Notes under the pieces: generated by a model
Told to the model about the DNA's origin: nothing
Seen by the model: the letters and a program-made list of their open reading frames with translations, nothing else
Database searches by the model: none
Program-made: the position numbers and the translations under genes
Assembly (NCBI GenBank): GCA_039028155.1
Contig: JBCCIS010000036.1
Span: 1 to 48,517, forward strand
DNA: 48,517 nucleotides
Direction of reading: 5' to 3'
From: Pseudomonadota bacterium
GTDB taxonomy: Bacteria > Pseudomonadota > Alphaproteobacteria > SP197
Shown: piece after piece, positions 11,524-47,950 of the stretch
Layout of the letters: every line of letters starts with the position of its first letter
Numbering within the stretch: position 1 is the stretch's first letter

Positions 11524-12660
11524 ATGACTAACTTCTCGCGTCGTTCGTTGCTCAAGACGACAGCGGCCGCGGCTGTCGGCGTGGCGACGCTGGCCGTCCT
11601 GCGGTCCAAAGATGCCCTATCCTCATCCGGCCAGGTCAACGTTTTTGCCTGGGGCGACTACGTCCAGCAGAACATGATCGACAAGTTCGAGGCTGACACC
11701 GGCATCACCGTCAACCTTTCGACATACGGTTCCAACGACGAGGCCGAGCAGAAGCTGAAGGCCGCCGGCGGTACCGGCTTCGACGTCATTTTCCCGTCGG
11801 TGACGAACGTGCCGAACTACAAGGTCGGCGACGACTTCGTTTTGATGGAACTGGACGAGTCCAAGGTCAATATGGACAACATCATCCCGTCGATGGTGCG
11901 CGACTCCATCCAGCTCGGCGGCGTGCAGCGCGGTAAGCGCTTGGCATTGCCCTTCGACTGGGGCACCGAGGCGGTGACATTCAACTCGGAAGTCTACCCG
12001 CTGGCCGACGACGAGGTGTCGTTCGGCTCGCTTTGGGGCTCCGGCATGGACGGCAAGGTCGCGTTCCGCCAGAAGTCGGTCATCATGGGCACCGGCCTCT
12101 ACCTTGACGCCATCGGCGAGGTGCCGTCAGACCGCATGCTTGATGTCTACAAGACCGAGGACGACGCCAAGCGCGTGTGGGACGCCGTCGCCAAGTTCGT
12201 CATCGAGCACAAGCAGAACGTCGGCGCCTTCTGGAACAACGCCACCGAGGCGACCAACGCCTTCACCCAGGCCGGCTGTGAGATCGGCCAGACCTGGGAT
12301 ACCACCGGCATCAAGCTGGGTTGGGATGTCGATCCCAAGTGGAAGTACCGCATGCCGGTCGAAGGCGGCATCACATGGATGGACTCGATCGCCATGCCGT
12401 CGGGTGCTGAGAACGTCGATCAGGGTTATGCCTTCCTGAATGCCATGTATGACGGTCCGATGGCGGGCATGTTCGTTGAGAACACCGGCTACAACTCGGC
12501 GGCCGTCGAAGGTGCTCAAAATGCCGGCGAGCAGTACGCCAAGACGTTCAACGAGATCTACACGACCGAAGCACTGGGCAATCTGTGGTGGTGGCAGCAG
12601 GACACGCCGTGGTTCGCACCCTTGCGGCAGGTCTATGTCGATGAAATCACCAACGCCTGA
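11524..12660 (+). CDS. ABC transporter substrate-binding protein, polyamine (PotD/PotF) type
   Basis: A 378-residue periplasmic binding protein with a twin-arginine-type signal (SRRSLLKTTAAAAVGVATLAV), then VNVFAWGDYVQQNMIDKFEADTGI, the typical opening of spermidine/putrescine-class binding proteins (family 1). Later aromatic-rich stretches (GFDVIFPSVTNV, WWWQQDTPWF) line the ligand cleft in this class. The start at 11524 is supported by GGGAGG and by placing the signal peptide at residue 1; the frame is open 19 codons upstream. It begins a four-gene importer operon. The ligand could be a polyamine, opine, quaternary amine or similar cation; sequence alone does not decide. Confidence 0.9.
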   Translation: MTNFSRRSLLKTTAAAAVGVATLAVLRSKDALSSSGQVNVFAWGDYVQQNMIDKFEADTGITVNLSTYGSNDEAEQKLKAAGGTGFDVIFPSVTNVPNYKVGDDFVLMELDESKVNMDNIIPSMVRDSIQLGGVQRGKRLALPFDWGTEAVTFNSEVYPLADDEVSFGSLWGSGMDGKVAFRQKSVIMGTGLYLDAIGEVPSDRMLDVYKTEDDAKRVWDAVAKFVIEHKQNVGAFWNNATEATNAFTQAGCEIGQTWDTTGIKLGWDVDPKWKYRMPVEGGITWMDSIAMPSGAENVDQGYAFLNAMYDGPMAGMFVENTGYNSAAVEGAQNAGEQYAKTFNEIYTTEALGNLWWWQQDTPWFAPLRQVYVDEITNA

Positions 12661-12683
12661 TTTGGTTTTTGATCGGTGATTCC

Positions 12684-12712
12684 CGGCCGGGCGGCGCTTT
12701 GCCGTCCGGCCG
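12684..12712 (+). promoter_or_regulatory. Intercistronic hairpin between binding-protein and ATPase genes
   Basis: CGGCCGGGCGGC (12684-12695) pairs with GCCGTCCGGCCG (12701-12712), a 12-bp stem with a single G-U pair and a GCTTT loop, starting 24 nt after the binding-protein stop. No T-run follows, so it is not a classical intrinsic terminator. In many ABC operons such a structure protects the upstream mRNA or causes partial termination, giving more binding protein than membrane subunits; that role is inferred here. Confidence 0.6.
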
Positions 12713-12763
12713 AACCGGCCCGGCCGGAGCATCGTCAGGAGTCGCGGTTAAGGGGGATTGGCG

Positions 12764-13867
12764 GTGAGCGACGGATTAAGCGGCAACGATGTCGAACTTG
12801 CGGGCGTCTCCATGTCGTTCGGCGACTTCGTGGCGGTGCAGCCGACCGACTTGACCGTACGGGCGGGCGAGTTCTTCTCCATTCTGGGCCCGTCGGGATG
12901 CGGCAAGACGACGATCCTGCGCATGGTGTCGGGCTTTCTGAAGCCGACGACCGGGCAGGTCCTGATCGGCGGCACGGACATGACGTCGCTTGGGCCCAAT
13001 CGGCGGCCCACGGCCCTTATTTTTCAGAACCTCGCGCTGTTCCCGCTGATGTCGGTTTGGGAAAATGTCGCCTTCGGTCTGGAGGCGCGCGGCATCGACA
13101 AGAAAACCCGTCGCCGGCGGGCGGAGGAATTGCTCGACCTGGTCGCGCTTCAGGGGCATGCCGACAAAAAGCCGACGGAGCTTTCCGGCGGCCAACGTCA
13201 GCGCGTCGCGGTGGCAAGGGCGTTGGCGGTCGAGCCATCGGTTCTTCTGCTCGATGAGCCTCTGTCGGCGCTCGACCTGAAGCTGCGCCAGCACATGCGT
13301 GCTGAGCTTAAGGATATTCAGCGCAAGACGGACATTACCTTCATCTACATCACGCACGATCAGGGCGAGGCGCTGACCATGTCCGACCGGATCGCGGTGA
13401 TGAACCGCGGACGTATCGAACAAGTCGCGGAGACCGAGGAGATCTACGACCATCCGGCGACGCCGTTCGTCGCGACTTTCGTCGGTGAACAGAACGTATT
13501 CCGCGGACGTGTTGCCGGCATCGCCAACGGTGTTGCGAGGGTCGACACCTCAAGCGGCACGTTCACGGGCCTGCCCAGAGGCACGCTCAATGATGGTGAC
13601 GAGGCGCTCGTCTTCGTCCGTCCGGAGCGCATGGGGCTGGCAAACGGCCAAGCAGGGGCGCTCAACACGGTTTCCGCGCATATCGAGCGGCGGGATCTGG
13701 AAGGCCCCTTCGTCAACGTCTTCATGCGCACGTCCGAAGACCAGGAGCTCGTCATGCACCTCACCAACTCAGGCGAGGTCTGGCGGTCCCTGGATGGTGA
13801 GCAAACGATCGGTTTCCAGACTGAAGATGCTCTGGTGCTCGCCGCCGGAGAACTGGCGCGTGAGTAG
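12764..13867 (+). CDS. ABC transporter ATP-binding protein, polyamine (PotA) type
   Basis: A 367-residue ATPase with Walker A GPSGCGKTT, Q-loop FQNLALFP, signature LSGGQRQRVAVARAL, Walker B VLLLDEPLSALD and switch His in ITHDQGEALT, followed by the C-terminal TOBE regulatory domain of the spermidine/putrescine class. It energises the importer at the inner face of the membrane. I chose the GTG at 12764 because the AGGGGG ribosome-binding site lies about 7 nt upstream; a TTG at 12758 is the alternative. Its stop lies within the start of the permease gene (8-nt overlap), indicating tight coupling. Confidence 0.95.
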   Translation: MSDGLSGNDVELAGVSMSFGDFVAVQPTDLTVRAGEFFSILGPSGCGKTTILRMVSGFLKPTTGQVLIGGTDMTSLGPNRRPTALIFQNLALFPLMSVWENVAFGLEARGIDKKTRRRRAEELLDLVALQGHADKKPTELSGGQRQRVAVARALAVEPSVLLLDEPLSALDLKLRQHMRAELKDIQRKTDITFIYITHDQGEALTMSDRIAVMNRGRIEQVAETEEIYDHPATPFVATFVGEQNVFRGRVAGIANGVARVDTSSGTFTGLPRGTLNDGDEALVFVRPERMGLANGQAGALNTVSAHIERRDLEGPFVNVFMRTSEDQELVMHLTNSGEVWRSLDGEQTIGFQTEDALVLAAGELARE

Positions 13868-15050
13868 CCTGTTCCGCAGCTACGGTCCTGTCATGGGCGG
13901 CATGTTCGTCGGCATGGTCGCGCTTTGGATCGTCGCACTGATCGTGCTGCCGCAGCTCAACATGATCGAGCGCGCGTTCATTTACGAACCGCGCGGCGGC
14001 GCGGCGATCCAGGCGCAAGTCGATGTCGACCGCGTTACCCAGCGCCTGTTCACCATCCGCTACGATATCCAGGAACTCGAAAAACAGGCAGCCGAGGGCG
14101 GGGAGGGGACCGGAGTTTTCACGCCGGGCGCCAAGATCGGCGAGGACAACACCGGCGCCGCCGACACCGTTGTCACCACGCCGAGCCTGTCGGGTGGTGG
14201 CGACAGCATTGCCGAGCAGATCGCAAGGCTCGAAGCCGAGGCCGTCGAACTTGAGGCGCAGCTTGTCGAGATGGAGGCCGAGGAACAGCGGTTGAAGGCC
14301 GAGCAGGAGGCCGCGGCCGGCTACTCCGTGCGCAACTTCACGACCATGAACGCGATCCACTTCAAGATCTTCGTCATGACGTTGTTCTATTCCTTCTGTG
14401 TCACGCTGATCTGTTTCGTGGTCTGCTATCCCATCGCCTACACGGTCGCCCAGACGACCAACCGGGAGCGCGCGGCGCTTCTGATGCTGGGCCTGATCAT
14501 CCCTTATGCGATCAACGAGCTCCTGCGCATCTTTGCCTGGACCATGATCCTGGCAAACCAGGGCATCTTGAACGCCGGCCTCGACGCCATTGGTATCCTC
14601 GATTTCAGCCAGGGCGAGACAATCCGCTGGGTCGCCTCCAACGGCGCCGTCTTCTGCGTCATGGTCTATGCCTACATCCTCTTCATGGTGTTCCCGATCT
14701 ACAACACCATCGAGACGCTGGACCGTAACCAGATCGAGGCGGCTCGGGATCTCGGTGCCTCGACCTGGCGCATCCATCGCCGCGTCGTCCTGCCGCATGC
14801 CAAGCCGGGTATCGCCGTCGGCTCGATCATGACGTTCATGCTGTCGGCCGGCTCGATTGCCGTGCCGGGTCTCGTCGGACCGGGCCTGCATCCCGACTGG
14901 TTCAGCCAGGTCATCTACCGGAACTTCTTCGAAGCCGGGAATTGGAACATCGGATCGGCCTATTCCCTGGCGCTGCTGGTCGCCTGTCTTGTCTTCATTC
15001 TTATCGTGATGTCGGTCTTCAAGGTCGGCATCAGGCAGATCGCGCGATGA
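13860..15050 (+). CDS. ABC transporter permease (PotB type) with a periplasmic coiled-coil insertion
   Basis: A 396-residue inner-membrane permease. TM1 is near residues 13-31; the remaining five or so helices run from about 165 onward and include the EAA loop (IEAARDLGASTWRIHRRVVLPHAKPG) that docks on the ATPase. Between TM1 and TM2, residues about 46-154 form an insertion absent from ordinary PotB (usually 280-310 residues): a Gly/Thr-rich linker flanked by heptad-like helices (VDRVTQRLFTIRYDIQELEKQ; IAEQIARLEAEAVELEAQLV). By topology it faces the periplasm. The start is GTG at 13860 overlapping the ATPase stop; the open frame further upstream lies inside the ATPase gene. Confidence 0.92.
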   Translation: MSSLFRSYGPVMGGMFVGMVALWIVALIVLPQLNMIERAFIYEPRGGAAIQAQVDVDRVTQRLFTIRYDIQELEKQAAEGGEGTGVFTPGAKIGEDNTGAADTVVTTPSLSGGGDSIAEQIARLEAEAVELEAQLVEMEAEEQRLKAEQEAAAGYSVRNFTTMNAIHFKIFVMTLFYSFCVTLICFVVCYPIAYTVAQTTNRERAALLMLGLIIPYAINELLRIFAWTMILANQGILNAGLDAIGILDFSQGETIRWVASNGAVFCVMVYAYILFMVFPIYNTIETLDRNQIEAARDLGASTWRIHRRVVLPHAKPGIAVGSIMTFMLSAGSIAVPGLVGPGLHPDWFSQVIYRNFFEAGNWNIGSAYSLALLVACLVFILIVMSVFKVGIRQIAR

Positions 15051-15940
15051 CGACACTTGCCGAATCCGCTCCCGCGACGCGCGAACGCCATCTTCTCGGC
15101 GTCGACTGGAGCAAGGCGATCCTCAGCCTCTACATGATCATCTTCTTCCTTTATCTCTTCGTGCCGCTGCTGATCATGGTACTCGCCGCGTTCAATTCGA
15201 ACGACACGCCGTCGGTTACCGACTGGCGCGGCTTCACCCTCGACTGGTTCACCGGGAGCTACAATGCCGAAGGGGACCTGACCGTGCGTGGCCTGCCGCA
15301 GGATGCCCGGTTCATACAGGGCCTGTGGCACTCGCTGTTGATCGCGTTCGGCGTCATCGCGATCTCCATACCGCTCGGCCTGTCCGGCGCGCTGCTGCTG
15401 ACACGCCTGGAGTCGCGCGCCAGCACGTTGCTTTACACGATCCTGGTCTCGCCGATCCTGATCCCCGGCATCGTGCTGGGCGTTTCCACCATGATCTTCT
15501 GGCGCGACATGTTCGGCGTCGAGGCCGGGCTCTTCACCGCCATGGTCGCGCAATCGGTCTTCATCGCGTCTTACTGCATGCTGCTCTTCATGGCGCGCCT
15601 GCAGCGCCAGGACCGCATTTTGGACGAGGCGGCGTTCGACCTCGGCGCCTCGTCCTTCATGGTCTTCCGCCGCATCACCCTGCCGTTCCTGATGCCGACC
15701 ATCGCGACCGCGACGGTGATCGCGTTCCTGCAGTCGATCGAGAACTACAACACCACGTTCTTCGCCATCGGCGGCTCATGGACCCTGGTGACGGAGATCG
15801 GCGCGCGTATGCGCTTCGGCCTGTCGCCGGTGGTCAACGCCATCGGCGTGATCTTCGTGGTCTTCACCGTTATCGCGGCGGTCACCTACGTGATGCTGAA
15901 GCGGCGCGAGCAGGCCAAGACAAAGGCCATGAAAGGCTGA
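15047..15940 (+). CDS. ABC transporter permease, PotC type
   Basis: A 297-residue membrane protein with about six helices (first at residues 25-48) and the EAA loop DEAAFDLGASSFMVFRRITLPFLMP near residues 190-220. It pairs with the upstream permease to form the channel of the importer. Length is slightly above the family norm because of a longer first periplasmic loop (residues 50-85). The ATG overlaps the preceding stop (ATGA), so the four genes from 11524 form one translationally coupled operon. The basic C-terminal tail ends the operon; the next gene is convergent after 9 nt. Confidence 0.94.
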   Translation: MTTLAESAPATRERHLLGVDWSKAILSLYMIIFFLYLFVPLLIMVLAAFNSNDTPSVTDWRGFTLDWFTGSYNAEGDLTVRGLPQDARFIQGLWHSLLIAFGVIAISIPLGLSGALLLTRLESRASTLLYTILVSPILIPGIVLGVSTMIFWRDMFGVEAGLFTAMVAQSVFIASYCMLLFMARLQRQDRILDEAAFDLGASSFMVFRRITLPFLMPTIATATVIAFLQSIENYNTTFFAIGGSWTLVTEIGARMRFGLSPVVNAIGVIFVVFTVIAAVTYVMLKRREQAKTKAMKG

Positions 15941-20154: not shown

Positions 20155-21663
20155 TCAACCCGGATAAGCTTCCTCGTCCTTGTAGGGATACCACCAGAAG
20201 TCCGCCGGCTTGTCCTCGTGGTCGATCATCGAGAGCTTGGAATGACGGAACTGGTCAAGGCCTTCTGCGCCCAATTGCCGGCCGGTGCCTGACATCTTGC
20301 GGCCGCCGAACGGACCGGCGTCGTTGTCGAGCAGGGCGCTGCAGTTGATCCAGGTCATGCCCGCCTCCAACTCCTCGATGCCGCGCATGGTCTCGTGCAG
20401 GTCGGCCGTATAGAGGAACGAGCCCAGGCCGTACTTCGAGTTGTTGGCGTGCTCCAGCGCCTCGTCGAAGCTGCCGACGCGGCAGATTGGCATAACCGGA
20501 CCGAAGCTTTCGTTGTTCATGATTTCCATGTCCGGCGTGCACTCGGTCATGATCGTCGTCTCGCAGAAGAAGCCGCGATTGAAACCATCGGGCCGGCCGC
20601 CGCCCAGGACGACCTTGGCGCCTTCGTCTTGGGCGCGCGCCAGCATCGCCTCGTAGCGGTCGCGTTCGCGAAGTGCCGCCATCGGTCCCATGTCGATCTT
20701 GTCGAGGCCGTTGCCGATACGAAGCTTCTTGGTCAGCTTGACGGCTTCGTCGACAAAGGCGTCATGCACCTGGTCGTGGACGTAGAACCGTTCGGCGGCG
20801 GCGCACACCTGGCCGCAGTTGAGATAAGCGCCGAACACCGCACCCTGGACCGCCATGTCCAGATTGGCCGACGGCATGACCAGGAACGGATCGTTGCCGG
20901 AGGCCTCGATCAAACAGCGCTTGAACGTGGTGCCGCACGTCTCCGACACCGCCTGGCCGGCGCCGATCGAACCGGTGAAGGCGACGCCGTCGATGCCATC
21001 GTGACCGACCAGATGTTTGCCAACCTCGACCGCGCCGGTGATGCACTGCACCAGGCCCTTCGGCAGATGGTCGAAACACTCCATCATCATCAGCGAGGAG
21101 AAGCTGGTGAGATCCGACGGCTTCAAGATGACCGCGTTGCCGGCACCGAGCGCCGCACCGGCTTCCCAGCCGAAGAGGACATAGGGGAAGTTGAAGGGCA
21201 GGATGATGCCGACAACACCGAGCGGATGCTTGGTGACGATATGCATCTGGCCGTCGGCGACCGGGCCGACCACGCGGCCGTTCTCGTGGCGGGCGGCCTC
21301 GGCATAGTAATCAAAGGCGGTCGCTGTCCATTCAACCTCGTCGGCGGACTCTTTATAGGGCTTGCCCATCTCACGGGTCAGGGCCTCGGCAAGCTTGGGC
21401 GAGAGTTCGCGGAATCGGCGCGCGACTTCGTGAAGCTCCTCGCTGCGCTTCAGCATGTTGATGCTGTTCCAATGTTTCTGGGCCCGCTGCGCATTGGCGA
21501 CCGCCTCGTCGACCTCCTCGACCTTGGCCATGGCGATCTCGCCGTTGACCTCTTCGGTGGCGGGATCGATGGCGTCCACGCCGTCGGACGCGGCGCTTTT
21601 GCGGAAGCTGCCGTCCAGATAGATCGAACCGCTGAGTTGCTTGAAGGTGTCGATAACGGTCAT
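20155..21663 (-). CDS. Aldehyde dehydrogenase family protein
   Basis: A 502-residue NAD(P)-dependent aldehyde dehydrogenase. Key residues are visible: Asn158 in PFNFP, Lys181 in KPSD, general-base Glu253 in IEASGNDPF (the usual ELGG is EASG) and catalytic Cys287 in NCGQVCAAAERF. The C-terminal tail includes GGRKMSGTGRQLG. It resembles betaine-aldehyde or succinate-semialdehyde-type enzymes, and oxidation of an aldehyde made by the neighbouring GMC oxidoreductase or lyase is a reasonable inference. The open frame continues 186 codons upstream, but that part overlaps the divergent dipeptidase gene and is a shadow; the start is the ATG at 21663. Confidence 0.93.
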   Translation of the reverse strand: MTVIDTFKQLSGSIYLDGSFRKSAASDGVDAIDPATEEVNGEIAMAKVEEVDEAVANAQRAQKHWNSINMLKRSEELHEVARRFRELSPKLAEALTREMGKPYKESADEVEWTATAFDYYAEAARHENGRVVGPVADGQMHIVTKHPLGVVGIILPFNFPYVLFGWEAGAALGAGNAVILKPSDLTSFSSLMMMECFDHLPKGLVQCITGAVEVGKHLVGHDGIDGVAFTGSIGAGQAVSETCGTTFKRCLIEASGNDPFLVMPSANLDMAVQGAVFGAYLNCGQVCAAAERFYVHDQVHDAFVDEAVKLTKKLRIGNGLDKIDMGPMAALRERDRYEAMLARAQDEGAKVVLGGGRPDGFNRGFFCETTIMTECTPDMEIMNNESFGPVMPICRVGSFDEALEHANNSKYGLGSFLYTADLHETMRGIEELEAGMTWINCSALLDNDAGPFGGRKMSGTGRQLGAEGLDQFRHSKLSMIDHEDKPADFWWYPYKDEEAYPG

Positions 21664-21798: not shown

Positions 21799-22809
21799 AT
21801 GGCGACCGAACTCCAGGTTGCAGCGCGCGCACTCTATGACGACGCGTTGATCTGGGACGACCACGCTGGCTTCGGCCCCGATCCGTCGGTCGACCTCAAC
21901 AGACTGGCAATCTGGAAGAATGCGGGCATCAACTACCTCTCGATCAATGTTGGCTATGACCGCATGGATTGGCGCGACACCGTCAAGTCGCTGGCCGCTT
22001 TCCGGCGATGGATCAGGGCGAGCGACGCGTATGAACTGGTCGGCACGGTCGATGAGATCGAACCGGCCCGAAAGGCCGGCAAGATGGCCTGCACCTTCGA
22101 CCTGGAGGGCATGAACGCGCTCGACGGATCGGTTGATATGGTTGAGTTCTATTACGACCTCGGCGTGCGCCAAATGCTGTTCGCCTACAACAAAAACAAC
22201 CAGGCGGGCGGCGGCTGTCACGACGAGGATACCGGCCTGAGCGCGTTCGGTCGCGAGGTCGTGGCCGAGATGAACCGGACCGGCATGGTCATCGATTGTT
22301 CACATTGCGCCTACACGACCAGCATGGAGGCGATGGAGATGTCGTCGGCGCCGACGATCTTCTCTCACTCCAACGCGCGGGCGCTACGCGATCACGAACG
22401 CAACATCACCGACGATCAGGCCAAGGCCTGCGCGGCCAATGGCGGCGTGATCGGCGTCGTCAGCCTGGATCTCTTCATGACCGATGGTGAGGCGACCGAG
22501 GAAATTCTGGCAGACCACATCGATCACTACGTGAACCTGGTAGGCGTGGACCATGTCGGCATTGGCCTGGACTATGCCTGGGACGATGAGGAGAACGACG
22601 ATGGCGGCAACGAGCTTGCCGAAACCATCGCCAAGAACCGCGACTTCTGGCCTGCGCGTCAGTATCCCGACCGACCGGTGCGTTTCCTGCCGCCCGATTG
22701 CCTGCCGCGCCTGACCGAGATTCTGTTGGAGCGCCAATATGCCGAAGGAGATGTGCGCGCCATTCTGGGTGGCAACTTCATGCGCGTCGCCCGGCAGGTG
22801 TGGAAGTGA
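21799..22809 (+). CDS. Membrane dipeptidase-like protein (peptidase family M19)
   Basis: A 336-residue TIM-barrel metallopeptidase without a signal peptide. Family features include TFDLEGMNAL (bridging Glu), VIDCSHCAYT and IFSHSNARAL (two His ligands) and GVDHVGIGLDYAW near the C-terminus. At the N-terminal metal site the usual HxD reads HAG (WDDHAGFG), so one ligand of renal dipeptidase is lost, as in some bacterial subgroups. Family members hydrolyse dipeptides, including D-amino-acid and dehydro forms. The stop overlaps the GTG of the DMFase-like gene by 4 nt (GTGA), which implies joint action on one substrate. Confidence 0.88.
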   Translation: MATELQVAARALYDDALIWDDHAGFGPDPSVDLNRLAIWKNAGINYLSINVGYDRMDWRDTVKSLAAFRRWIRASDAYELVGTVDEIEPARKAGKMACTFDLEGMNALDGSVDMVEFYYDLGVRQMLFAYNKNNQAGGGCHDEDTGLSAFGREVVAEMNRTGMVIDCSHCAYTTSMEAMEMSSAPTIFSHSNARALRDHERNITDDQAKACAANGGVIGVVSLDLFMTDGEATEEILADHIDHYVNLVGVDHVGIGLDYAWDDEENDDGGNELAETIAKNRDFWPARQYPDRPVRFLPPDCLPRLTEILLERQYAEGDVRAILGGNFMRVARQVWK

Positions 22810-25040
22810 CGGGCCGCGCGCTGAACGGTTATAGCGACGTCGTCTCTGTCGCGCCCGGCGGGCGTATCGTCTTCTACGTAAGCTGTGAGGGATACGAGAC
22901 CTACGACGCCCGGATCGTCAGGCTGATCTGTGCGGACGACAATCCAAAGGGCGCGCCGTTTCATGCCGAGCCTGTGAAGGCACCGTGCAACGGCAGCCAC
23001 CCCGGCCACCACCAGATCATTCACGCCGGCTCTCACGGTGTCGTCGATCCGGCGCCAGACTTCATGGGGCCGGGCGGTTTCACCTTGCAGGCGCTGGTCA
23101 TGCCGACAACACCAGGCAGCCGCAAGCAAGGCTTGCTCGGAACCTGGTCGGAGACCGGACAGACGGGCGCCAGCCTGATCCTGGCCGAAGACGGCTCGCT
23201 AGGCTTTGTCGCCGGTGATGGCGACAAGTCCGCCATGGTCAGCACCGGCGTACCGTTGTCGCGCCGGGCCTGGTACCGGGTCGCTGCGGTGTATGACGAT
23301 GAAGGCCAGACGGTGAGGCTCCACCAAGAACCGCTCAACGGCGGCAAACCGCTCGTGACGACAGCGCCGCTTGCGCTTGCTCCAGTGCCGGGAGATGGAA
23401 AATTCCTTATCGCCGCGTGGCAGCACGCTCATCCGGATGGTCGCGGCTACCAAGCCGGGTGTTTCAACGGTCGTGTAGAAAAGCCATGTGTGTCAACCCT
23501 GGCCTTGGATGTGGAAGAACTGGCGCAGGATGACGAAGACTCGTCCAATGGCGTTGTCGCTTCTTGGGATTTTTCCCTAGATATCAGTAGCGAACGGCTG
23601 ACGGATGTATCCGGTAACGGCCACCACGGCGAGACCGTCCATCTGCCCCAGCGTGGCATGCGCGGCGCTGGATGGACGGGCCGCGAGATGTGCTGGCGCC
23701 ATGCGCCCGAAGAGTATGGCGCGATCCACTTCCACGACGACGACGTCTATGATTCCGATTGGCGGGAGAGTTTCGCCTGGACCGTGCCGGTGGGCACGCG
23801 AAGCGGCATCTACGCCGCACACATAACGACCGGTGAGCATGAGGAGTTCATGCCGTTCTGCGTGCGCCCGCCCAAGGGCACGGCGACGGCGGAAGTCTGC
23901 TTTCTCTATCCGACCGGCACCTACGTGGCCTACGCGAACTCCGGCCGGCACTTCCGCAACGACACGGTTGAGATGAAGCAGTTCCGCGCGACCGTCATGA
24001 CCACCGCCGACTGCTTCCTGCAGGAACACTCGGAATACGGCCTTTCGACCTATGACACCCATTCCGACGGTAGCGGCGTCAGCGTGTCGTCGAGGCTCAG
24101 GCCAATCCTCAACATGCGCCCGAAGGTTCGTGTCTGGGGGCTCGCCGCCGACACCCACATCACCTCATGGCTTGAACATGACGGCCAAGCCTATGACGTC
24201 ATCAGCGACGAAGACCTTCATGCCGAGGGCTTCGAGCTCTTGTCGCGCTACCGCGTCGTCATCACCGGCACCCACCCCGAATACCACACGACCGAGATGC
24301 TCGACGCCCTTGCCGCTTTTACCAAGGCTGGTGGCAGGCTGATCTATACGGGCGCCAACGGATTCTATTGGCGCATTGCCTATCACCCGAAAAAACCCGG
24401 CGTCATCGAATGCCGCAAGACCGAAGGCGGCACCAGGTCCTGGGTCAGCGAGGTCGGCGAATCCTTTATGAGCTTCACCGGCGAATACGGCGGCCTGTGG
24501 CGTCGCTCCGGGCGTACGCCTCAGCAGCTGACCGGCATCGGATTCACCGCCCAGGGTTTCGACTGGTCGTCCTGGTACGAGCGCCGACCGGGAAGCTACG
24601 ACACGCGCGCCGCCTTTATCTTCGAGGGCCTGGCCGAAGACGAGAAGATCGGCGATTTCGGTCTCGTCGGCGGCGGCGCGGCCGGCTTGGAGCTCGATCG
24701 CTGCGACTACGCATTGGGGTCGCCGCCGCACACCCTGGTGCTGGCCTCGTCTGCCGGTCACAGCGAAGGCATGCTGGTGGTGATCGAGGAACTGACCTCG
24801 AACCAGCCGGTCATCGGCCCCAACCATCCCAAGGTCCACGCCGACATGACCTTCTTCGAACTGGACGGCGGCGGCGCCGTCTTCTCGACCGGTTCAATTG
24901 CGTGGGCGGGCAGCCTGCCGATCAACGGTTTCGACAACAACGTCGCGACCGTCATGCGCAACGTGCTGTCGCGTTTCCTTGATTCCAAACCCTTTACTGG
25001 TTTCGACGCCTCCGCGCCTGCCAGCCGGCCGATGGCGTGA
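22806..25040 (+). CDS. N,N-dimethylformamidase large-subunit-like amidohydrolase (copy A)
   Basis: A 744-residue soluble protein, close to the 760 or so residues of DMFase large subunits. Order: N-terminal beta domain (to about 85), LamG/concanavalin-like domain (about 90-220), linker, then the catalytic DMFase domain with GAIHFHDDDVYD, TYVAYAN, YDTHSDGSG and THPEY. DMFase binds a mononuclear iron through two tyrosines and a glutamate; the matching residues here appear to be Tyr376, Tyr416 and Glu492. DMFase hydrolyses the amide of dimethylformamide to dimethylamine and formate; the true substrate of this paralog is unknown. The GTG start at 22806 overlaps the dipeptidase stop, and its own stop overlaps the FrhB start. 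No small-subunit gene is adjacent. Confidence 0.85.
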   Translation: MTGRALNGYSDVVSVAPGGRIVFYVSCEGYETYDARIVRLICADDNPKGAPFHAEPVKAPCNGSHPGHHQIIHAGSHGVVDPAPDFMGPGGFTLQALVMPTTPGSRKQGLLGTWSETGQTGASLILAEDGSLGFVAGDGDKSAMVSTGVPLSRRAWYRVAAVYDDEGQTVRLHQEPLNGGKPLVTTAPLALAPVPGDGKFLIAAWQHAHPDGRGYQAGCFNGRVEKPCVSTLALDVEELAQDDEDSSNGVVASWDFSLDISSERLTDVSGNGHHGETVHLPQRGMRGAGWTGREMCWRHAPEEYGAIHFHDDDVYDSDWRESFAWTVPVGTRSGIYAAHITTGEHEEFMPFCVRPPKGTATAEVCFLYPTGTYVAYANSGRHFRNDTVEMKQFRATVMTTADCFLQEHSEYGLSTYDTHSDGSGVSVSSRLRPILNMRPKVRVWGLAADTHITSWLEHDGQAYDVISDEDLHAEGFELLSRYRVVITGTHPEYHTTEMLDALAAFTKAGGRLIYTGANGFYWRIAYHPKKPGVIECRKTEGGTRSWVSEVGESFMSFTGEYGGLWRRSGRTPQQLTGIGFTAQGFDWSSWYERRPGSYDTRAAFIFEGLAEDEKIGDFGLVGGGAAGLELDRCDYALGSPPHTLVLASSAGHSEGMLVVIEELTSNQPVIGPNHPKVHADMTFFELDGGGAVFSTGSIAWAGSLPINGFDNNVATVMRNVLSRFLDSKPFTGFDASAPASRPMA

Positions 25041-26302
25041 GCGCGACCATGACGTCCGTCGACAGTCTTCAGACCATCGTCACCCACGGTCTGTGCATCG
25101 GCTGCGGTCTTTGTGAAAGCATCGCGGGCGCTGACAAGGTCGAGATGGCGATCACGTCTTATGGGCAGATGCGGCCGCAGGTGAAGCAGGCATTCACCGA
25201 CGACACCATGGAGATGATCAAGGCGGTTTGTCCCGGCATTCTGATCAACGGTCCCGATCCGGCCAACGCGGGTGAGCACGGCGTCATGCACGATGTCTGG
25301 GGCCCCATCCGCACGATGACGCGCGGTTGGTCGACGGACGAGGAGCTGCGCTTTCGCTCCGCCGCGGGCGGCGCCATGACCGCGCTCGGCTGTTACATGC
25401 TGGAGAAAGAGTTGGTGGACGCGGTCGTTCATGTGCGCGCGTCGGCGACGAACCCGATGGAGACCGACGCTCTGGTCAGCCGAACACCGGACGAGGTGCG
25501 CTCTGGCGCGCAGTCGCGCTATGGCCCCGCCGCGCCGCTGCGCCACGTCATGCGGCTTCTGGACGATGGCCTTACCTTTGCCGTGTTGGCCAAACCCTGC
25601 GATTGCGCGGCGATCCGCAACCTGGCCACGGTCGATCCGCGGGTCGAAAGGCAGATCCCTTACCTCATCACCATCTTCTGCGGCGGCGTGCCGACGCGCC
25701 ATACCGCCAGTAAGATCGTGCGCTACCATGGCCTCGACGACGATGACGTCGAGATCTTCCGCTGGCGCGGCAACGGTTGGCCCGGTCCGACCCATGTCGA
25801 AACGATGGACGGCGCGTCCTATGACCTGACCTATGACAAGGTCTGGTACAGCGACGACGTGCCGTGGACCTATGACATCCAGTTCCGCTGCAAGATCTGC
25901 CCCGACGCCATCGGCGAACTGGCCGATGTCAGTTGCCCGGACTCGTGGATCATGGTCGACGATAAGCCGATCCACGACGAGGCGCCCGGTGCCAACCTCT
26001 TCATCGCGCGCACCAAGGCGGGTGAGGATCTGGTCGCCGCGGCCATCGCCGATGGCGCGATTGCGGTCGAACCGTTCACGGTCGGCGACCTCGATGCGCA
26101 ACACGCCGATCACGTGACACGCAAGATCGAAAACCCGGCCCGCATACGCGGCGTTGGAAAAGAGGGTGAACCGGCGCCCCGGTTCACGCGCTTCCGCAGC
26201 GGCCGTATGGCGCAGATGGCGGGCGCCGAGAGAGATCGCGCCGCCGAGGAGGGCATGCGCCAACGCATCCAACGCGGCGCCAATCGGGAACCCCTGACAT
26301 GA
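25037..26302 (+). CDS. FrhB/FdhB-family flavoprotein (coenzyme F420 hydrogenase/dehydrogenase beta-subunit family)
   Basis: A 421-residue protein with an N-terminal CIGCGLC cysteine cluster (about residues 20-26), AVCPG, a central LAKPCDCAAIRNL, and a later KICPDAIGELADVSCPD Fe-S motif, the arrangement of the FrhB family. Homologs bind FAD and one or two [4Fe-4S] clusters and pass electrons between ferredoxin, F420 or another carrier and a substrate. F420 is not general in Alphaproteobacteria, so a ferredoxin-linked reductase, as in the chlorophyll reductase branch, is at least as likely. GTG at 25037 overlaps the DMFase-like stop by 4 nt; an ATG at 25049 is the alternative. Confidence 0.85.
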   Translation: MSATMTSVDSLQTIVTHGLCIGCGLCESIAGADKVEMAITSYGQMRPQVKQAFTDDTMEMIKAVCPGILINGPDPANAGEHGVMHDVWGPIRTMTRGWSTDEELRFRSAAGGAMTALGCYMLEKELVDAVVHVRASATNPMETDALVSRTPDEVRSGAQSRYGPAAPLRHVMRLLDDGLTFAVLAKPCDCAAIRNLATVDPRVERQIPYLITIFCGGVPTRHTASKIVRYHGLDDDDVEIFRWRGNGWPGPTHVETMDGASYDLTYDKVWYSDDVPWTYDIQFRCKICPDAIGELADVSCPDSWIMVDDKPIHDEAPGANLFIARTKAGEDLVAAAIADGAIAVEPFTVGDLDAQHADHVTRKIENPARIRGVGKEGEPAPRFTRFRSGRMAQMAGAERDRAAEEGMRQRIQRGANREPLT

Positions 26303-27899: not shown

Positions 27900-28649
27900 A
27901 TGTCCAAGACCATCATCGTGACCGGCGCCAGCCGCGGTATCGGCGCCGCGATTGCAATGGGGGCCGGGCGGCGGGGTTGGCGCGTGTGCGTCAACTACAA
28001 CAGTTCGCCCGACAAGGCCGAAGAGGTCGCGGCCGCCGTCGAGGCCAACGGCGGCGAGGCCTTCACGTTCAGGGCCAGCATGGGTGTCGAGGATGAGCTG
28101 GTTGCCATGTACAAGGCGGTCGACGACAAGTGGGGCGGCTTGGACGGTGTGTGCAATAACGCGGGCATCGATCACGAGGCCGACTTCGCGGAGACGACGT
28201 GGGAGAACTACCTGAAGGTTTTCGACGTCAACATCCTGGGCCTGATGGCCAGTTGCCGCGAAGCCGTCCGGCGCATGGCGACATCGAGAGGCGGCTCGGG
28301 CGGTTCGATCGTCAATATCGGGTCGATCTCGGCGCGCACCGGCGGCCTGCCGGGTGATGTCATCTATACGGCGACCAAGGGGGCGGTCGATTCGTTTACG
28401 CTTGGCCTGGCCAAGGAAGTCGGTCCCGATGGCATCCGTGTCACCTGTGTCCGGCCCGGCGTCATCCGAACGGATATCTTCTCCGGCAACGCATTTGGCC
28501 TGGAACAGGTCGAGGAACTCGCCCGCACGAATTCGCCGATGCAGCGCATTGGTGAACCCAACGAAGTCGCCGCCATGGCGCTGTTTTTGCTGTCGGATGA
28601 GGCGTCGTTCTGTACCGGCATGACCTATGATGTGAACGGCGGGCGCTAG
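27900..28649 (+). CDS. Short-chain dehydrogenase/reductase (SDR)
   Basis: A 249-residue classical SDR: cofactor motif TGASRGIG (residues 8-15), NNAG (86-89), active-site Ser in IGSISA, and Tyr156/Lys160 in YTATK, ending with the family-typical MTYDVNGG. The Asn-Tyr-Asn stretch after strand 2 suggests a preference for NADP over NAD, but this is not firm. It oxidises or reduces a hydroxyl/keto group of unknown substrate. The start ATG at 27900 follows a GGGGAGGAG ribosome-binding site; it lies 22 nt after the M81 gene, likely the last gene of that operon. Confidence 0.9.
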   Translation: MSKTIIVTGASRGIGAAIAMGAGRRGWRVCVNYNSSPDKAEEVAAAVEANGGEAFTFRASMGVEDELVAMYKAVDDKWGGLDGVCNNAGIDHEADFAETTWENYLKVFDVNILGLMASCREAVRRMATSRGGSGGSIVNIGSISARTGGLPGDVIYTATKGAVDSFTLGLAKEVGPDGIRVTCVRPGVIRTDIFSGNAFGLEQVEELARTNSPMQRIGEPNEVAAMALFLLSDEASFCTGMTYDVNGGR

Positions 28650-28797: not shown

Positions 28798-29652
28798 ATG
28801 ATCAAAAGAAGCCTGCTAGGGGCCATTATCGTAACCGCCGCCGGGGCATTGGCGGCCTGCCAGTCCTCGCCGAGCGAAACACCACCAATCGGCCAGTTTT
28901 ATGCCGGCGATGACGGCACGGAGAGCGTCGGCTTGTTCGATCAGGGCTTCGATCAAGCGGTCGAGGATCCCGCCGAGACAATCTTCATCATCTACAATCA
29001 CGGCACCTATTGGGGTGCCGGCTACGAAGACTGCTATCCCGGCACCATACCGAGCTTCGTCCGTCGTTGGGGCGAGTACGGCATCGACGGCCGCGATGTC
29101 ACCGTGTTCTATCTATGCACCCAGGTGACCGAGAAACGCTTTGTCCTGGGCCGCCAGCGTTCGGAAGAGAACGAGGCGTTGCTTGACCGCCTGGCTGCTC
29201 TCGGTGTGCCGCGCGAACATATCTTCGTCTTCGGCCATTCCGGCGGGGCCAGCGCGGCGTTGCTGACCGCCGAGCGGGCGCAGGAGAAGTTCAACGCCGC
29301 GGTCGTCAGCGCACCGGGCTACGGCTTTGCGTACCTGGAAGCCGAAGGCGAGTCCGCAAACTGGCTCGACTTGGAGTACGACAAGTGGCGCAGTCGTCTG
29401 GCCACCGCCGACGACATGCAGGCGCTGGTCTATGTCTATGATGGCGACATCATCACGCCGCCGGCGCAGGCGCTGTTTCTACGCGACCATCCGGGTGTTC
29501 GGATGATCCAGATCCAAGCGCCGAACGACGACGGCGTGTTGTGCAAGGACGAACCTGAGCCGCACTTCTATTGGTGGAGTGCTTGCTTCAAGCGTGACCA
29601 GGTCGATGTCGTTGAGGCCTACATCAAGGAGCGCCTCGACCTCGACAGTTGA
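28798..29652 (+). CDS. Lipoprotein alpha/beta hydrolase
   Basis: A 284-residue protein with a lipoprotein signal peptide (KRSLLGAIIVTAAGALAAC; lipobox LAAC, acylated Cys at residue 21), so it is predicted to be membrane-anchored at the cell envelope. The nucleophile elbow FVFGHSGGAS supplies Ser; a His candidate is in EPHFYWWSAC near the C-terminus. The central region YNHGTYWGAGYEDCYPG is not common in esterases, and I cannot name a subfamily. The start ATG at 28798 is preceded by AGAGAAG; an ATG at 28780 would add six residues. Four or more cysteines in the mature protein suggest disulfides. Confidence 0.75.
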   Translation: MIKRSLLGAIIVTAAGALAACQSSPSETPPIGQFYAGDDGTESVGLFDQGFDQAVEDPAETIFIIYNHGTYWGAGYEDCYPGTIPSFVRRWGEYGIDGRDVTVFYLCTQVTEKRFVLGRQRSEENEALLDRLAALGVPREHIFVFGHSGGASAALLTAERAQEKFNAAVVSAPGYGFAYLEAEGESANWLDLEYDKWRSRLATADDMQALVYVYDGDIITPPAQALFLRDHPGVRMIQIQAPNDDGVLCKDEPEPHFYWWSACFKRDQVDVVEAYIKERLDLDS

Positions 29653-30189: not shown

Positions 30190-31092
30190 CTAACCGCCGT
30201 GGCGCGTCAGGAACCCTTCCAGGATCGGGAAATAGGTGTCCGGTTGCTCAAAGGACGTCATGTGGGCGGCGTTGGCGATGACATGGATCTCGCTTGTCGG
30301 CATTTGTTGGTGCATACGCATCGAGCATGACGGCGTCAGTTCGTCGTGCTCACCCACAACGATCAGCGTCGGCGCCTCGATGCGGGCGAGATCGTCGAGC
30401 CGATTCCAGTCCTTCAAATTGCCAGTGCACTGAAACTCGCTGGCGCCCCACATGTAGCCGTAGATCCCCATCTCGATGTTATCCATCGAGCGCTTGATCG
30501 GCGCCGGCAGGGCCTCCAGACGATGGACGTGACGCCAGCTCAGGATGTCGAGCGCTGCCGCATACTCCGGGTGGTCGGTCGACCCTTCGGCCTCGCGGCG
30601 CAGCATCATGTTGACGGTCTCGCTTCCCAGCGCGGTGCGCAGCCGGTTCTGCTCGGTCAAGAGATGCGGCACGTCCGCCACGGTGTTGGAGAGCGTCAGG
30701 CTCTTGATGTCATCAGGAAAGGTGAGCGCATGCTCGATGGCCAGGAAGCCACCCCAAGACTGACCGAGTACATGGACGCGGCCCAGGTCGAGGCCGGCCC
30801 GAACCTGCTCCATCTCCCGCGCGTAGCGTTCGATGGTCCAGAGTGCCGTGTCGCCGGGCCGTTCGGAGCGGCCGGTGCCCAGTTGGTCCCAGGTCACGAC
30901 GCGCCAGCCTTTGTCGGCCAGGTGGCTGTGGCCGTCGCGCAGGTAGTCGCAAGGCAGACCCGGGCCGCCGTTGACCAGGAACAGGACCTCGTCGCCCGAA
31001 CCGAAGCTATAGGTCATGACCTCGCCGCCGTCGACGGCGACCGCGGTCATCGCGTCAGGCTGGCGTTCGACGTCAGGAAGTGATTCGCTCAT
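30190..31092 (-). CDS. Proline iminopeptidase-family alpha/beta hydrolase (tandem copy 1)
   Basis: A 300-residue alpha/beta hydrolase of the prolyl-aminopeptidase (S33) type: oxyanion-hole segment VNGGPGLPCDYL, WDQLGTGRS, nucleophile elbow GQSWGG, Asp in VGEHDELTP and His in AAHMTSFEQPD. Such enzymes release N-terminal proline or hydrolyse small peptides and amides. It is the downstream member of a tandem pair that is clearly homologous over the full length. The start at 31092 lies 4 nt after the stop of copy 2; the open frame reaching 31215 overlaps that gene and is not used. Cytoplasmic. Confidence 0.9.
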   Translation of the reverse strand: MSESLPDVERQPDAMTAVAVDGGEVMTYSFGSGDEVLFLVNGGPGLPCDYLRDGHSHLADKGWRVVTWDQLGTGRSERPGDTALWTIERYAREMEQVRAGLDLGRVHVLGQSWGGFLAIEHALTFPDDIKSLTLSNTVADVPHLLTEQNRLRTALGSETVNMMLRREAEGSTDHPEYAAALDILSWRHVHRLEALPAPIKRSMDNIEMGIYGYMWGASEFQCTGNLKDWNRLDDLARIEAPTLIVVGEHDELTPSCSMRMHQQMPTSEIHVIANAAHMTSFEQPDTYFPILEGFLTRHGG

Positions 31093-31096
31093 GGCA

Positions 31097-31999
31097 TCAA
31101 CCGTTCTGTTCCGCCAGGAAGTCCTCGAGCACATTGAAGTAGGCGGCGGGATCTTCAAAGCAGGTGGAGTGGGAGGTGTTCGGGAACACCGTGATGCGGC
31201 TGTTGGGCAGGGCATGATGCATCTTCATGGCGCAGGCGGGCGTCAGCTCGTCGTGTTCACCGACGATGATCAATGCCGGCCGGTCGATGCGATGCATATC
31301 GGGAATGCGGTTCCAGTCCTTCAGGTTGCCCGTGTACACGAACTCGTTGGGACCCTGCATGATGTTGTAGATATCGAACACCATCCCATCCATTGAACGC
31401 TGGAGTGCCGGCGGGATGGTGTCGAGACGATGAACATGGCGCCAGTCCAGCAAGGCGACCGCGGCCTTGTACTCGGGATGGCCGATCGTGCCATCGGCTT
31501 CACGCCGCAGCATCATGGTCACGGTCTCAGGGCCAAGCGCCGAGCGCAGCCGGCTGAGTTCGCTGACAAGGTGGGGCAGGTCGCCGGCCGTGTTGGAGAG
31601 CACCAGGGACTTCACGCCGTCTATGAAGGTCAGCGCATACTCGATGGCGAGCCAACCGCCCCAGGATTGGCCGAGCAAGTGAATGGGACCCAGGCCCAGA
31701 CCGGTCCGGACCGCCTCCAGTTCGCGCGCGTAACGTTCGATCGTCCACAGCGACGGGTCGTCTGGCCGGTCGGAACGACCCGTACCCAATTGGTCCCAGG
31801 TCACGACGCGCAGCCCGTCCATGGCCAGATGGCTGTGGCTATCGCGCATGTAATCGCACGGCAATCCAGGACCGCCATTGGCCAAGAACAGGACGTCATC
31901 GCCCGAACCGAAGCTGTAGGTCATTACGTCGCCGCCTTCGACGGCAACACGCTCCATGGCGTCGGGCTGGCGTTCAACGCCTTCAAGCGTTTCGGTCAT
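31097..31999 (-). CDS. Proline iminopeptidase-family alpha/beta hydrolase (tandem copy 2)
   Basis: Also 300 residues, with the same layout as its neighbour: ANGGPGLPCDYM, WDQLGTGRS, GQSWGGWLA, VGEHDELTP and a His in TSHSTCFEDP. Differences concentrate in the cap region (about residues 145-230), which usually determines substrate, suggesting divergence after tandem duplication. AAGGAG precedes the ATG at 31999. Together with the M19 and M81 peptidases elsewhere in the window it adds to an unusual density of small-peptide or amide hydrolases. Confidence 0.9.
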   Translation of the reverse strand: MTETLEGVERQPDAMERVAVEGGDVMTYSFGSGDDVLFLANGGPGLPCDYMRDSHSHLAMDGLRVVTWDQLGTGRSDRPDDPSLWTIERYARELEAVRTGLGLGPIHLLGQSWGGWLAIEYALTFIDGVKSLVLSNTAGDLPHLVSELSRLRSALGPETVTMMLRREADGTIGHPEYKAAVALLDWRHVHRLDTIPPALQRSMDGMVFDIYNIMQGPNEFVYTGNLKDWNRIPDMHRIDRPALIIVGEHDELTPACAMKMHHALPNSRITVFPNTSHSTCFEDPAAYFNVLEDFLAEQNG

Positions 32000-32944: not shown

Positions 32945-33952
32945 CTACGTCAAACGTTCGCGTGCCAGCGGTGCGGTCGAGCAGTGAATGCCGCCGCCGC
33001 CGCGCCACACGGCCTCGTAGTCGAGCTGGATCACCTCGATGCCCGCTTTGTCGAGTTTTTCCAGCGTACGTTCGGAGGTCTCGCTCATGATCACGCGGCC
33101 CGGCGCGATCGCCAGACAGTTGATCGTGAAGGCTTCGTCTTCCGGCGACAGCTCGATCAGCCTGATGCCGCGCTTCTGGAGATCCTCCATGAAAGCAAAC
33201 GGCAACAGGATCGGATTGACCAGGGCGGTATCGACATCGACCATGACAAACATGCCGTCGATATGCAGGCGGAAACCCGGTACCTGCATGCGTATGAGCT
33301 CGATACCCATAGGCGCCAGAACTTCGTCAATCTGGCGCGCGGCTTCTTCGTTGACCCGGCTCGAGATGCCGATGACGGCGGTCTGTTCATTGATCCAGGC
33401 AAAGCTGCCGCCTTCGCAGATGCCCGTGCCGTTGATCGTGCGCAGGATCGGCATGCCAAGCTTGGCCAAGGTCCGCGTCGCCGGCATCTCCTCACCGCGC
33501 CGCACGCGCGGGCCCAGACGGCACACGATCGCACCGCCATCGACCGCGATGACGACGTCGCGGGTGTAACAGCTTTTCATGCGGCCCGGCGCGCATTCGT
33601 CCAGCATGACGACACGAACCTGGTTTTCCTCCAGCGTCTTGACCAGGGCATCGTGCTGGGCCTGCATGGCCGGCAGGTCGGGCGGCTCCGCGCCGCGCCA
33701 GTACCAGCCGGTTTCCGGATCGCCATAGGCGCCCAACTCCTCGATCTTCTTGTCCGGGTCGACGGTGTTGAGTTCGTCGCCGGGGCGATGCATCAACACG
33801 GACTGCAGACGCCCAACATCGTTACGGCAACCCCAGACCTGACCCCAGTTGCCTTCTTGCTCTTCCGCCGTCTCGAACGCCGGCTCGGGCTCCGAGGCGA
33901 AGGTCTTGATCAGTTGGTTATAGCGCACGTCTTCAGGGGTCATGATCGGCAT
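32945..33952 (-). CDS. Arginine deiminase / dimethylarginine dimethylaminohydrolase-like hydrolase
   Basis: A 335-residue pentein-fold protein. Catalytic residues can be placed: a Glu in ICEGGSF (Glu180), His in LHIDGMF (His230) and the nucleophilic Cys near the C-terminus in GGIHCST (Cys324), with TRD (130-132) as a conserved substrate-binding turn. The size is between DDAH (about 255-285) and arginine deiminase (about 410). Family reactions hydrolyse or transfer the amidine group of arginine, methylarginines or related guanidines; DDAH releases dimethylamine. The substrate here is not determined. It lies 88 nt from the acyl-CoA synthetase in the same direction. Confidence 0.82.
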   Translation of the reverse strand: MPIMTPEDVRYNQLIKTFASEPEPAFETAEEQEGNWGQVWGCRNDVGRLQSVLMHRPGDELNTVDPDKKIEELGAYGDPETGWYWRGAEPPDLPAMQAQHDALVKTLEENQVRVVMLDECAPGRMKSCYTRDVVIAVDGGAIVCRLGPRVRRGEEMPATRTLAKLGMPILRTINGTGICEGGSFAWINEQTAVIGISSRVNEEAARQIDEVLAPMGIELIRMQVPGFRLHIDGMFVMVDVDTALVNPILLPFAFMEDLQKRGIRLIELSPEDEAFTINCLAIAPGRVIMSETSERTLEKLDKAGIEVIQLDYEAVWRGGGGIHCSTAPLARERLT

Positions 33953-45722: not shown

Positions 45723-47945
45723 CTAGTCTGGCGGCGATGGGAAGGGCGTCTCGTCGACAAATCGCGTGACGATGTTTTCCAGCAGAACGCTCACGTTGTT
45801 CTGGTAGTTGTCGTGGGCCAGCGAGCCGGCGAACGCAATGGAGCTGGTCGAAAACACCGCGCCGCCATTTGGTGTTTCGTAAAACACCATGTCACAGCGC
45901 ACATGCGGGCAGTTTTCGCCATTGACGGCGGAGTGCGTGTGGTGGAACTCCTCGTCGACCCAATGGACATCGACACCGAAGTCAGTCGCCTCCGCGACGA
46001 TGAGCGCATGGGGCGGTGTGCCAAGAGCGTAGTCGATGGCGTCGATCTCGCTTCCGGCCGCACCGCCCAGGACGGTTCCGAAATCGCCGATACTCTCGTT
46101 TTTGCCGATACCGTCGAACATCCACGCGGCGCGCGGGTCGTTGCTCTCGTCGCGACGCGCATAGGGTCTGGCGGCAATGAAACCTTGCGCCGAGAAACTG
46201 GTGCCGCAGATCACCTCAGGCGGGATGCCGTTACGCCGCCATAGGCCGGAGAGTTCGCCGGTGAAGCTCATATAGTACTCTCCGGGCTCGGCAATCCATG
46301 AGCGCATGCCATCCTCGGCCCGCCGCATCTCGATCACGCCGGGCAGCGTCGGGTGATAGGCGACACGCCAATAGAAGCCGTTGCCGCCCATATAGATGAA
46401 CCGCCCGCCACGCTGCTGGTAGTGCAGCAAGGCCTCCATCATCGGCTTTGAATAGTACTCCGGGTGCGTCGTCGTCATGACGCAAGGGTAGTTCTCCAAC
46501 AGGCTGACGCCTTCGGCGTCCAGGTCGTCATCGGTGAAAACGTCGAAGTCGATGCCTTTTTCTTCCAGCCAGTCGGTGATGTGGGTGTCGGCGTTGTATT
46601 GCCACAGATCGTCTCGCGGACCCATGCGCAGAAAAGGGCGCAGGCGCGAGGCATAGCAGACGCCGCTGCCGTCAGTGTGGTTGTCGTACATGCTGAGCCC
46701 GTGTTCGGGGTGCATGTGCAAATGCAGGTCGGTCTGATCCAGCGTCGTGAACCGGTTGCCCGAATGCTCGCCCAGCGTATCCCACTCGATCGGCATGTGA
46801 TGGTTGACATAGGCATAGTAGCTGGCGGTCGCGATCAACAGGCCCAGCTTCGCCGTCGTCGTGCCCTTCTTTGGCCGGACATAAAAGGGGACGTAGAACC
46901 ACTGATCGCCTTGGGTAAGGCGCGCGCAATAGGTGCCGCTCTTGAAGTCGTCGGGAATCGACCAACTGACGTCGGTCTGCCAGCCGCAGTCATAGACATC
47001 GTCGTCGTGAAAATGGATGGCGCCGTAGTGTTCGGGTTTGTGCGTCCAGACCATCTCGGTGCCGTCATGGTTTCGCCCTTTCATGGCGCGCGTCGGCAGA
47101 TTGACCGTCTGGCCGTCCAGACGATTGGGCGATGTGTCGACGATGCGCGTCCCCGGAATGTCCTGACTAAAATCCCAGGCGGCAACCGTGCTGGTCTGTA
47201 AGTCTGCAGGAGGCCTCACCGCCTTCATACGCTCCATCTTAGGCCGGGAGAGCGCGCGGTTGGCGACGCGCGGGCTGTCGATCTTGCCGTTGAAGAAGTT
47301 GGTGGCGATCTGGTCGCCCTCGCGCTGATTGTTGCACGCGGCAATGGTGAAGCGTCCGCCTTGGCCGGGCTTCAACGCTACGTCCAACTCGGCACGCGCC
47401 TTGCCACGTTCACCGGCGTAGCGCACCAGCGGTTCCTGAATGACTGTCATGGCGCCCGTCGCGGCATCGAAGCTCGCGGCGACGAAGTACCAGTGGCGCG
47501 GATCCATCGCGGCGCCGGAAACAAGCGTCTCGACAATCGACCCATCGCCGATGACGAGTGCCGCCTGTTTGTCATGCACCGCCAGCGCATACCCCGCGTT
47601 TTTCGCCCGGTCGAGGGCGCCCATAATCGTCTGACCTTCCTTGTCAGGCGTCGTTGGCCAGACGAAGGCCTGCAGGGTGAAGCTCTCCAGCGCGAAACGC
47701 TCCGGATGCGGCACGACAACAAACGAACCAACCTGGGTCCACTGGTAACGCGCGGGATAGTCGCCATTGACGTCGGCGTCGATGACCGTCTCCTTCAGGC
47801 CCTGACCCTGCGGCGTATCGTCGCCGCAGCGAATGCGAACGATGTCGAGACGATAGCTTCCTTCGACTTCGGAACTGACCTTGAAGTCGATTGTCTGACC
47901 GGGTTGCCGGCTGATTTCGTTGGCGTAACCCAACAGCTTGCGCAT
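45723..47945 (-). CDS. N,N-dimethylformamidase large-subunit-like amidohydrolase (copy B)
   Basis: A 740-residue protein with the same plan as the gene at 22806: N-terminal beta domain starting LLGYANEISRQPGQTIDF, LamG-like domain (about 85-235), GAIHFHDDDVYD and the catalytic DMFase domain. Candidate iron ligands by alignment are Tyr379 (SYYAYVN), Tyr420 (LSMYDNHTDGSG) and Glu496 (THPEYYS). The 41-residue gap between the two Tyr agrees with characterised DMFase as I recall it. I chose the ATG at 47945 because GAGGA is well spaced from it; the ATG at 47954 overlaps the upstream stop. No signal peptide. It is directly coupled to copy C. Confidence 0.87.
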   Translation of the reverse strand: MRKLLGYANEISRQPGQTIDFKVSSEVEGSYRLDIVRIRCGDDTPQGQGLKETVIDADVNGDYPARYQWTQVGSFVVVPHPERFALESFTLQAFVWPTTPDKEGQTIMGALDRAKNAGYALAVHDKQAALVIGDGSIVETLVSGAAMDPRHWYFVAASFDAATGAMTVIQEPLVRYAGERGKARAELDVALKPGQGGRFTIAACNNQREGDQIATNFFNGKIDSPRVANRALSRPKMERMKAVRPPADLQTSTVAAWDFSQDIPGTRIVDTSPNRLDGQTVNLPTRAMKGRNHDGTEMVWTHKPEHYGAIHFHDDDVYDCGWQTDVSWSIPDDFKSGTYCARLTQGDQWFYVPFYVRPKKGTTTAKLGLLIATASYYAYVNHHMPIEWDTLGEHSGNRFTTLDQTDLHLHMHPEHGLSMYDNHTDGSGVCYASRLRPFLRMGPRDDLWQYNADTHITDWLEEKGIDFDVFTDDDLDAEGVSLLENYPCVMTTTHPEYYSKPMMEALLHYQQRGGRFIYMGGNGFYWRVAYHPTLPGVIEMRRAEDGMRSWIAEPGEYYMSFTGELSGLWRRNGIPPEVICGTSFSAQGFIAARPYARRDESNDPRAAWMFDGIGKNESIGDFGTVLGGAAGSEIDAIDYALGTPPHALIVAEATDFGVDVHWVDEEFHHTHSAVNGENCPHVRCDMVFYETPNGGAVFSTSSIAFAGSLAHDNYQNNVSVLLENIVTRFVDETPFPSPPD

Positions 47946-47950
47946 GGTCG

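Follow-up and report, generated by a model that had tools for sequence, protein, structure and literature searches.

A conserved, lineage-restricted set of M19-like, DMFase-fold and FrhB-family genes in uncultured Alphaproteobacteria, most likely a catabolic operon

Genes for an M19-like hydrolase, a DMFase-fold amidohydrolase (DMF), a FrhB-family protein, an M81 peptidase and an SDR lie head-to-tail on the plus strand of the 48,517-nt stretch of DNA analysed here (the window), corresponding to contig C36 in a genome of 5.3 Mb (G000; 97% complete, 4% contaminated). This gene set is real, conserved and restricted to one lineage, and most likely constitutes a catabolic operon; we give about an even chance to the more specific reading that it serves, as a lineage-specific operon, to break down an N-acylated amino-acid or peptide-like amide after its import, FrhB being an accessory protein independent of F420. 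The near relatives of the focal genome are uncultured alphaproteobacterial MAGs, several of them from sea water according to their titles.

Gene content and organization of the locus

The five genes and their order, as given in a preliminary description of this DNA, were borne out by the open reading frames and the Pfam matches, all on the plus strand. The features of the window are the following:

11524-15940, plus strand: ABC importer, whole
11524-12660, plus strand: ABC importer, SBP_bac_8
12812-13867, plus strand: ABC importer, ATPase
13827-15050 and 15047-15940, plus strand: ABC importer, permeases
20155-21663, minus strand: aldehyde dehydrogenase (ALDH), divergent partner
21799-22809, plus strand: M19-family (membrane dipeptidase-like) hydrolase; PF01244, 282 bits
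22800-25040, plus strand: DMFase-fold amidohydrolase (DMFA2_C); PF20254, 313 bits; 540 bits to DMFase 6lvb
25049-26302, plus strand: FrhB-family flavo-Fe-S oxidoreductase with an N-terminal CxxCGxC...CP half-ferredoxin; PF04422 and PF04432
26375-27877, plus strand: M81 / MlrC-like metallopeptidase; DUF1485 and MlrC_C domains both found
27900-28649, plus strand: SDR oxidoreductase
28798-29652, plus strand: alpha/beta-hydrolase-like protein; lipoprotein-like N-terminus judged by eye; kept downstream in relatives

Two GTGA overlaps had been proposed to join the first three genes. GTGA is present in the DNA at both the M19/DMF and the DMF/FrhB junctions, and the overlap of the M19 and DMF frames is real, being kept among relatives even at 62-64% protein identity; however, the relatives favour starts at 22800 and 25049, so that translation of DMF and FrhB probably does not begin at either GTGA. 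The DMF start kept in relatives (g2 and g3) is a GTG or ATG located 10 nt inside the M19 frame (GTG GAA ATA...), corresponding to 22800 in the window, with the GTG at 22806 as a possible alternative, while FrhB orthologs begin at an ATG equivalent to 25049, 8 nt past the DMF stop, a GTG at 25037 being the alternative in this case. Overlap of DMF with FrhB is confined to genus g1, and in the focal locus this junction is probably an 8-nt gap with no overlap.

A promoter and terminator scan gave matches no better than the chance level, and a literature search for an M19-DMF-FrhB operon or for a bacterial catabolic FrhB gave nothing direct. Homologs of the ABC importer permeases adjoin ALDH in loci L039 and L121.

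Conservation of the gene set in related genomes

Our survey covered the 143 nearest genomes, and FrhB orthologs were also sought in 84,980 species. M19-DMF-FrhB-M81-SDR was contiguous in five genomes (G000, G001, G002, G006 and G015) belonging to three genera, thus the focal arrangement is not due to chance, and the early description is supported in so far as the locus is a tightly packed, conserved set of hydrolases with a flavin/Fe-S protein. The neighbourhood search suggested there, intended to run across bacteria, found an order that is not unique to the focal genome but belongs to one family only: all the genomes displaying it come from a single family-level alphaproteobacterial lineage, and the loci of the FrhB orthologs recovered from the 84,980 species did not show this order in any other lineage. 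Genome G013 carries DMF-GNAT-FrhB-M81-SDR, its M19 being off the contig, and FrhB-M81-SDR was found in seven genomes.

Among the 11 testable loci of the focal DMF clade, the divergent ALDH lies beside DMF in every one and is its sole constant partner; M19 is located upstream of DMF in 8 of the 11, and FrhB is present in fewer, although MAG binning errors could distort single cases of presence or absence. Each of FrhB, M19 and M81 is lacking from some of the relatives, and the three may serve separate steps, or pathways that are merely co-located, and some of the conserved order may reflect general synteny within one family. It is possible, but rather doubtful, that this holds for the whole locus, mutually independent hydrolase and redox genes having stayed side by side through family-level synteny, with no single pathway: the five genes stay unbroken in three genera although their flanks gain several genes, and the M19 and DMF frames overlap, against which stand a modular gain and loss (G008, G010 and G011 have ALDH and DMF but no M19, and G009 has M19-DMF only), the synteny of genes downstream of the unit, and a CRISPR locus lying between DMF and M81 in G007.

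The latter (L120, 3946-10055) is a type IV-A-like locus (DinG, Cas7, Cas6, Cas5, HNH) with an array of 10 repeats at a 66-nt period, and it occupies the place of FrhB in relatives. From their size these genes had suggested an Rnf complex, which would have implied a supply of ferredoxin; Pfam and PADLOC identified CRISPR genes and the array, and the Rnf reading was dropped.

Analysis of the DMFase-fold amidohydrolase

In a tree of 43 sequences the focal DMF belongs to a 13-member monophyletic clade (100/100 support) found in one family only. The protein is similar over its whole length to the large subunit of Paracoccus DMFase (6LVB; 540 bits, 40% identity), and its residues Y376, Y416, E492, H490 and N518, counted from the GTG at 22806, align with Y399, Y440, E521, H519 and N547, which are the iron ligands and nearby residues of DMFase (PMC7686228). 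These positions are invariant among the 43 sequences, with one gap each at E492, H490 and N518; the focal DMF keeps the 2-Tyr-1-Glu ligands of the mononuclear iron site (Y376/Y416/E492) as well as the His and Asn near the metal.

Unlike DMFase, the focal DMF has no small-subunit gene nearby, and none was found beside any DMF of the focal clade where the flanks were readable. The Paracoccus large subunit alone is inactive (PMC7686228), hence the focal protein must be self-sufficient or borrow a subunit in trans; by analogy, the N-acetyl-(R)-beta-phenylalanine acylase, whose solved entry (8HUY) likewise lists no small-subunit chain, suggests self-sufficiency. Many DMF paralogs have upstream an ORF of ~100 aa with the DMFase small subunit as top match (6lvb_B, E=0.0015), and the three such ORFs of G000 each lie beside another DMF gene (C85, C37, C50), none of them near the focal gene. 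Divergent short ORFs of this kind (L127:2996-3295, L128:3558-3860, L065:1823-2128 and others) are a possible new family model, the one that was scanned having no Pfam match. Two more DMFase-fold large-subunit genes lie in tandem with a 4-nt overlap on the minus strand of the window (45723-48517), the second being truncated at the end of the window, and a small subunit for them was not detected within the window.

The pocket also separates the focal protein from DMFase, which has I and T in place of R523 and R544, and a pocket-constricting Phe693 that is Ser in the focal DMF. Both arginines are found in the acylase, and they occur in 40 and 41 of the 43 sequences, respectively; being present in most of the superfamily, they set the focal gene apart from DMFase and do not single out acylases. 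A pocket with R523 and R544 would fit a carboxylated amide, an argument drawn from the alignment and not from a ligand-bound structure. The acylase and the focal DMF have in common the iron ligands, R523, R544, E560 and the motifs 'HPEYHT' and 'GEYGGLWR', but they are 37% identical and the focal clade falls outside the solved-acylase clade. Two arginines shared with the acylase and lost in true DMFase, in a clade devoid of a small subunit, speak against the N-alkyl amide substrate first proposed for this locus.

The family is rich in DMFase-fold genes, with about four to seven matches in most genomes, of up to seven scored per genome; nearly all of the family's genes keep the arginines lost in true DMFase, and some have no small-subunit gene nearby.

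The FrhB-family protein

Iron-sulfur flavin proteins of the FrhB type are best known from methane-making microbes. The focal protein has the FrhB_FdhB N and C domains, the Fe-S cysteines and the fold, and its eight conserved cysteines (C20, C23, C26, C65, C188, C215, C285 and C288) align with those of the CODH subunit 8RIU and are consistent with two 4Fe-4S clusters. The AlphaFold2 model (pLDDT 92.5) gave Z values of 35.6 to this F420-reducing CODH subunit, 30 to Fsr (7NP8) and 27.3 to HCAR (5DQR), members of the FrhB/FdhB family with the same fold and eight cysteines. In contrast to F420-type FrhB systems, the neighbours of the focal gene are hydrolases instead of hydrogenase or CODH subunits, and its host shows no F420 biosynthesis genes: CofD and CofE were undetected in G000 (97% complete), as in almost every member of the family, whereas 25 of 143 relatives were positive in the same search for CofE. 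An F420 enzyme was rejected on this absence; an F420-dependent FrhB with the cofactor imported or otherwise supplied is highly improbable, even though the nearest solved structures are F420 enzymes.

The view that a reductive step is needed is not supported by the comparison of loci, since the DMF loci of G007, G009 and G012 have M19-DMF without FrhB, with no FrhB match anywhere in the G009 genome (judged at E<=1e-20). FrhB orthologs with 48-65% identity were found both outside the family, in Myxococcales MAGs, Dongia, Bradyrhizobium and a Rhizobium MAG, and within it, in a fourth genus (L074, genome G004), and their fetched flanks contained no M19, DMF or M81. Together with a DMF pocket that is not DMFase-like, these cases make it unlikely that the locus encodes a single pathway acting on a modified peptide or N-alkyl amide, with an essential reductive step carried out by FrhB, despite FrhB lying immediately downstream of DMF in five genomes, and past one GNAT gene in a sixth, and despite having the fold of HCAR, a ferredoxin-dependent reductase of the FrhB family.

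Rather than being tied to DMF, FrhB resembles a redox module that can be exchanged. Eight loci of the family share the order ACAD-FrhB-CoA ligase-SDR, and a FrhB paralog of G000 lies in an operon of acyl-CoA dehydrogenase, ADP-forming CoA ligase and SDR (ACAD-ACAD-FrhB-CoA ligase-SDR; L044, G000:C28, 7321-13902). Distant FrhB homologs (L051, L086-L089) adjoin genes that we take to be polysaccharide pyruvyl transferase-like; no FrhB was found in viral contigs.

The M19-like and M81 proteins

The first gene had been called an M19 dipeptidase. Its family assignment stands by the Pfam match (PF01244, 282 bits), and the later ligand positions known from renal dipeptidase (Glu, two His, Asp) are kept; nevertheless, in this lineage HAG stands in place of the usual N-terminal HxD metal motif, leaving the M19 metal site incomplete, and the match begins only at profile position 62, so that the dipeptidase label needs care. 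Members of this M19 subfamily (44-55% identity) adjoin ABC transporters of oligopeptide type, as judged by gene sizes and similarity, in G000 (L063) as well as in two genomes from a different family (L170 and L173); these neighbours fit a peptide-related role for the subfamily, its dipeptidase activity being putative.

The M81 protein has both Pfam domains of the MlrC family but, unlike the MlrC system, no other mlr genes were recognised in its annotated neighbourhood. Further along the window (30190-31999, minus strand) there are tandem alpha/beta-hydrolase paralogs, at least one of them proline iminopeptidase-like (TIGR01250), which are kept in order in relatives beside an arginine-deiminase/DDAH-like gene (32945-33952).

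Proposed function and significance

According to the reading we favour, the ABC importer would bring the compound into the cell, where the DMFase-fold enzyme, with a mononuclear iron on Tyr376, Tyr416 and Glu492, would hydrolyse the amide while Arg523 and Arg544 hold the carboxylate of the substrate. The M19-like and M81 enzymes may then cut further amide or peptide bonds, and the divergent ALDH and the SDR may oxidise or reduce aldehyde or alcohol fragments. FrhB would act, in some variants of the pathway, as an accessory F420-independent flavo-Fe-S protein, probably trading electrons with ferredoxin. We infer the substrate, the direction of the FrhB reaction and its electron partner.

It is quite unlikely that FrhB works as a ferredoxin-linked reductase devoted to a dehydro- or oxidised N-acyl amino-acid or peptide intermediate that an iron-dependent acylase and an M19 'dehydropeptidase' release; if true, marine amide catabolism would include a new route that is both hydrolytic and reductive.

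Our analysis suggests that 'dimethylformamidase' is often a misleading annotation in marine bacteria, and the locus offers a concrete place to learn the role of FrhB in a bacterium without detectable F420 synthesis.
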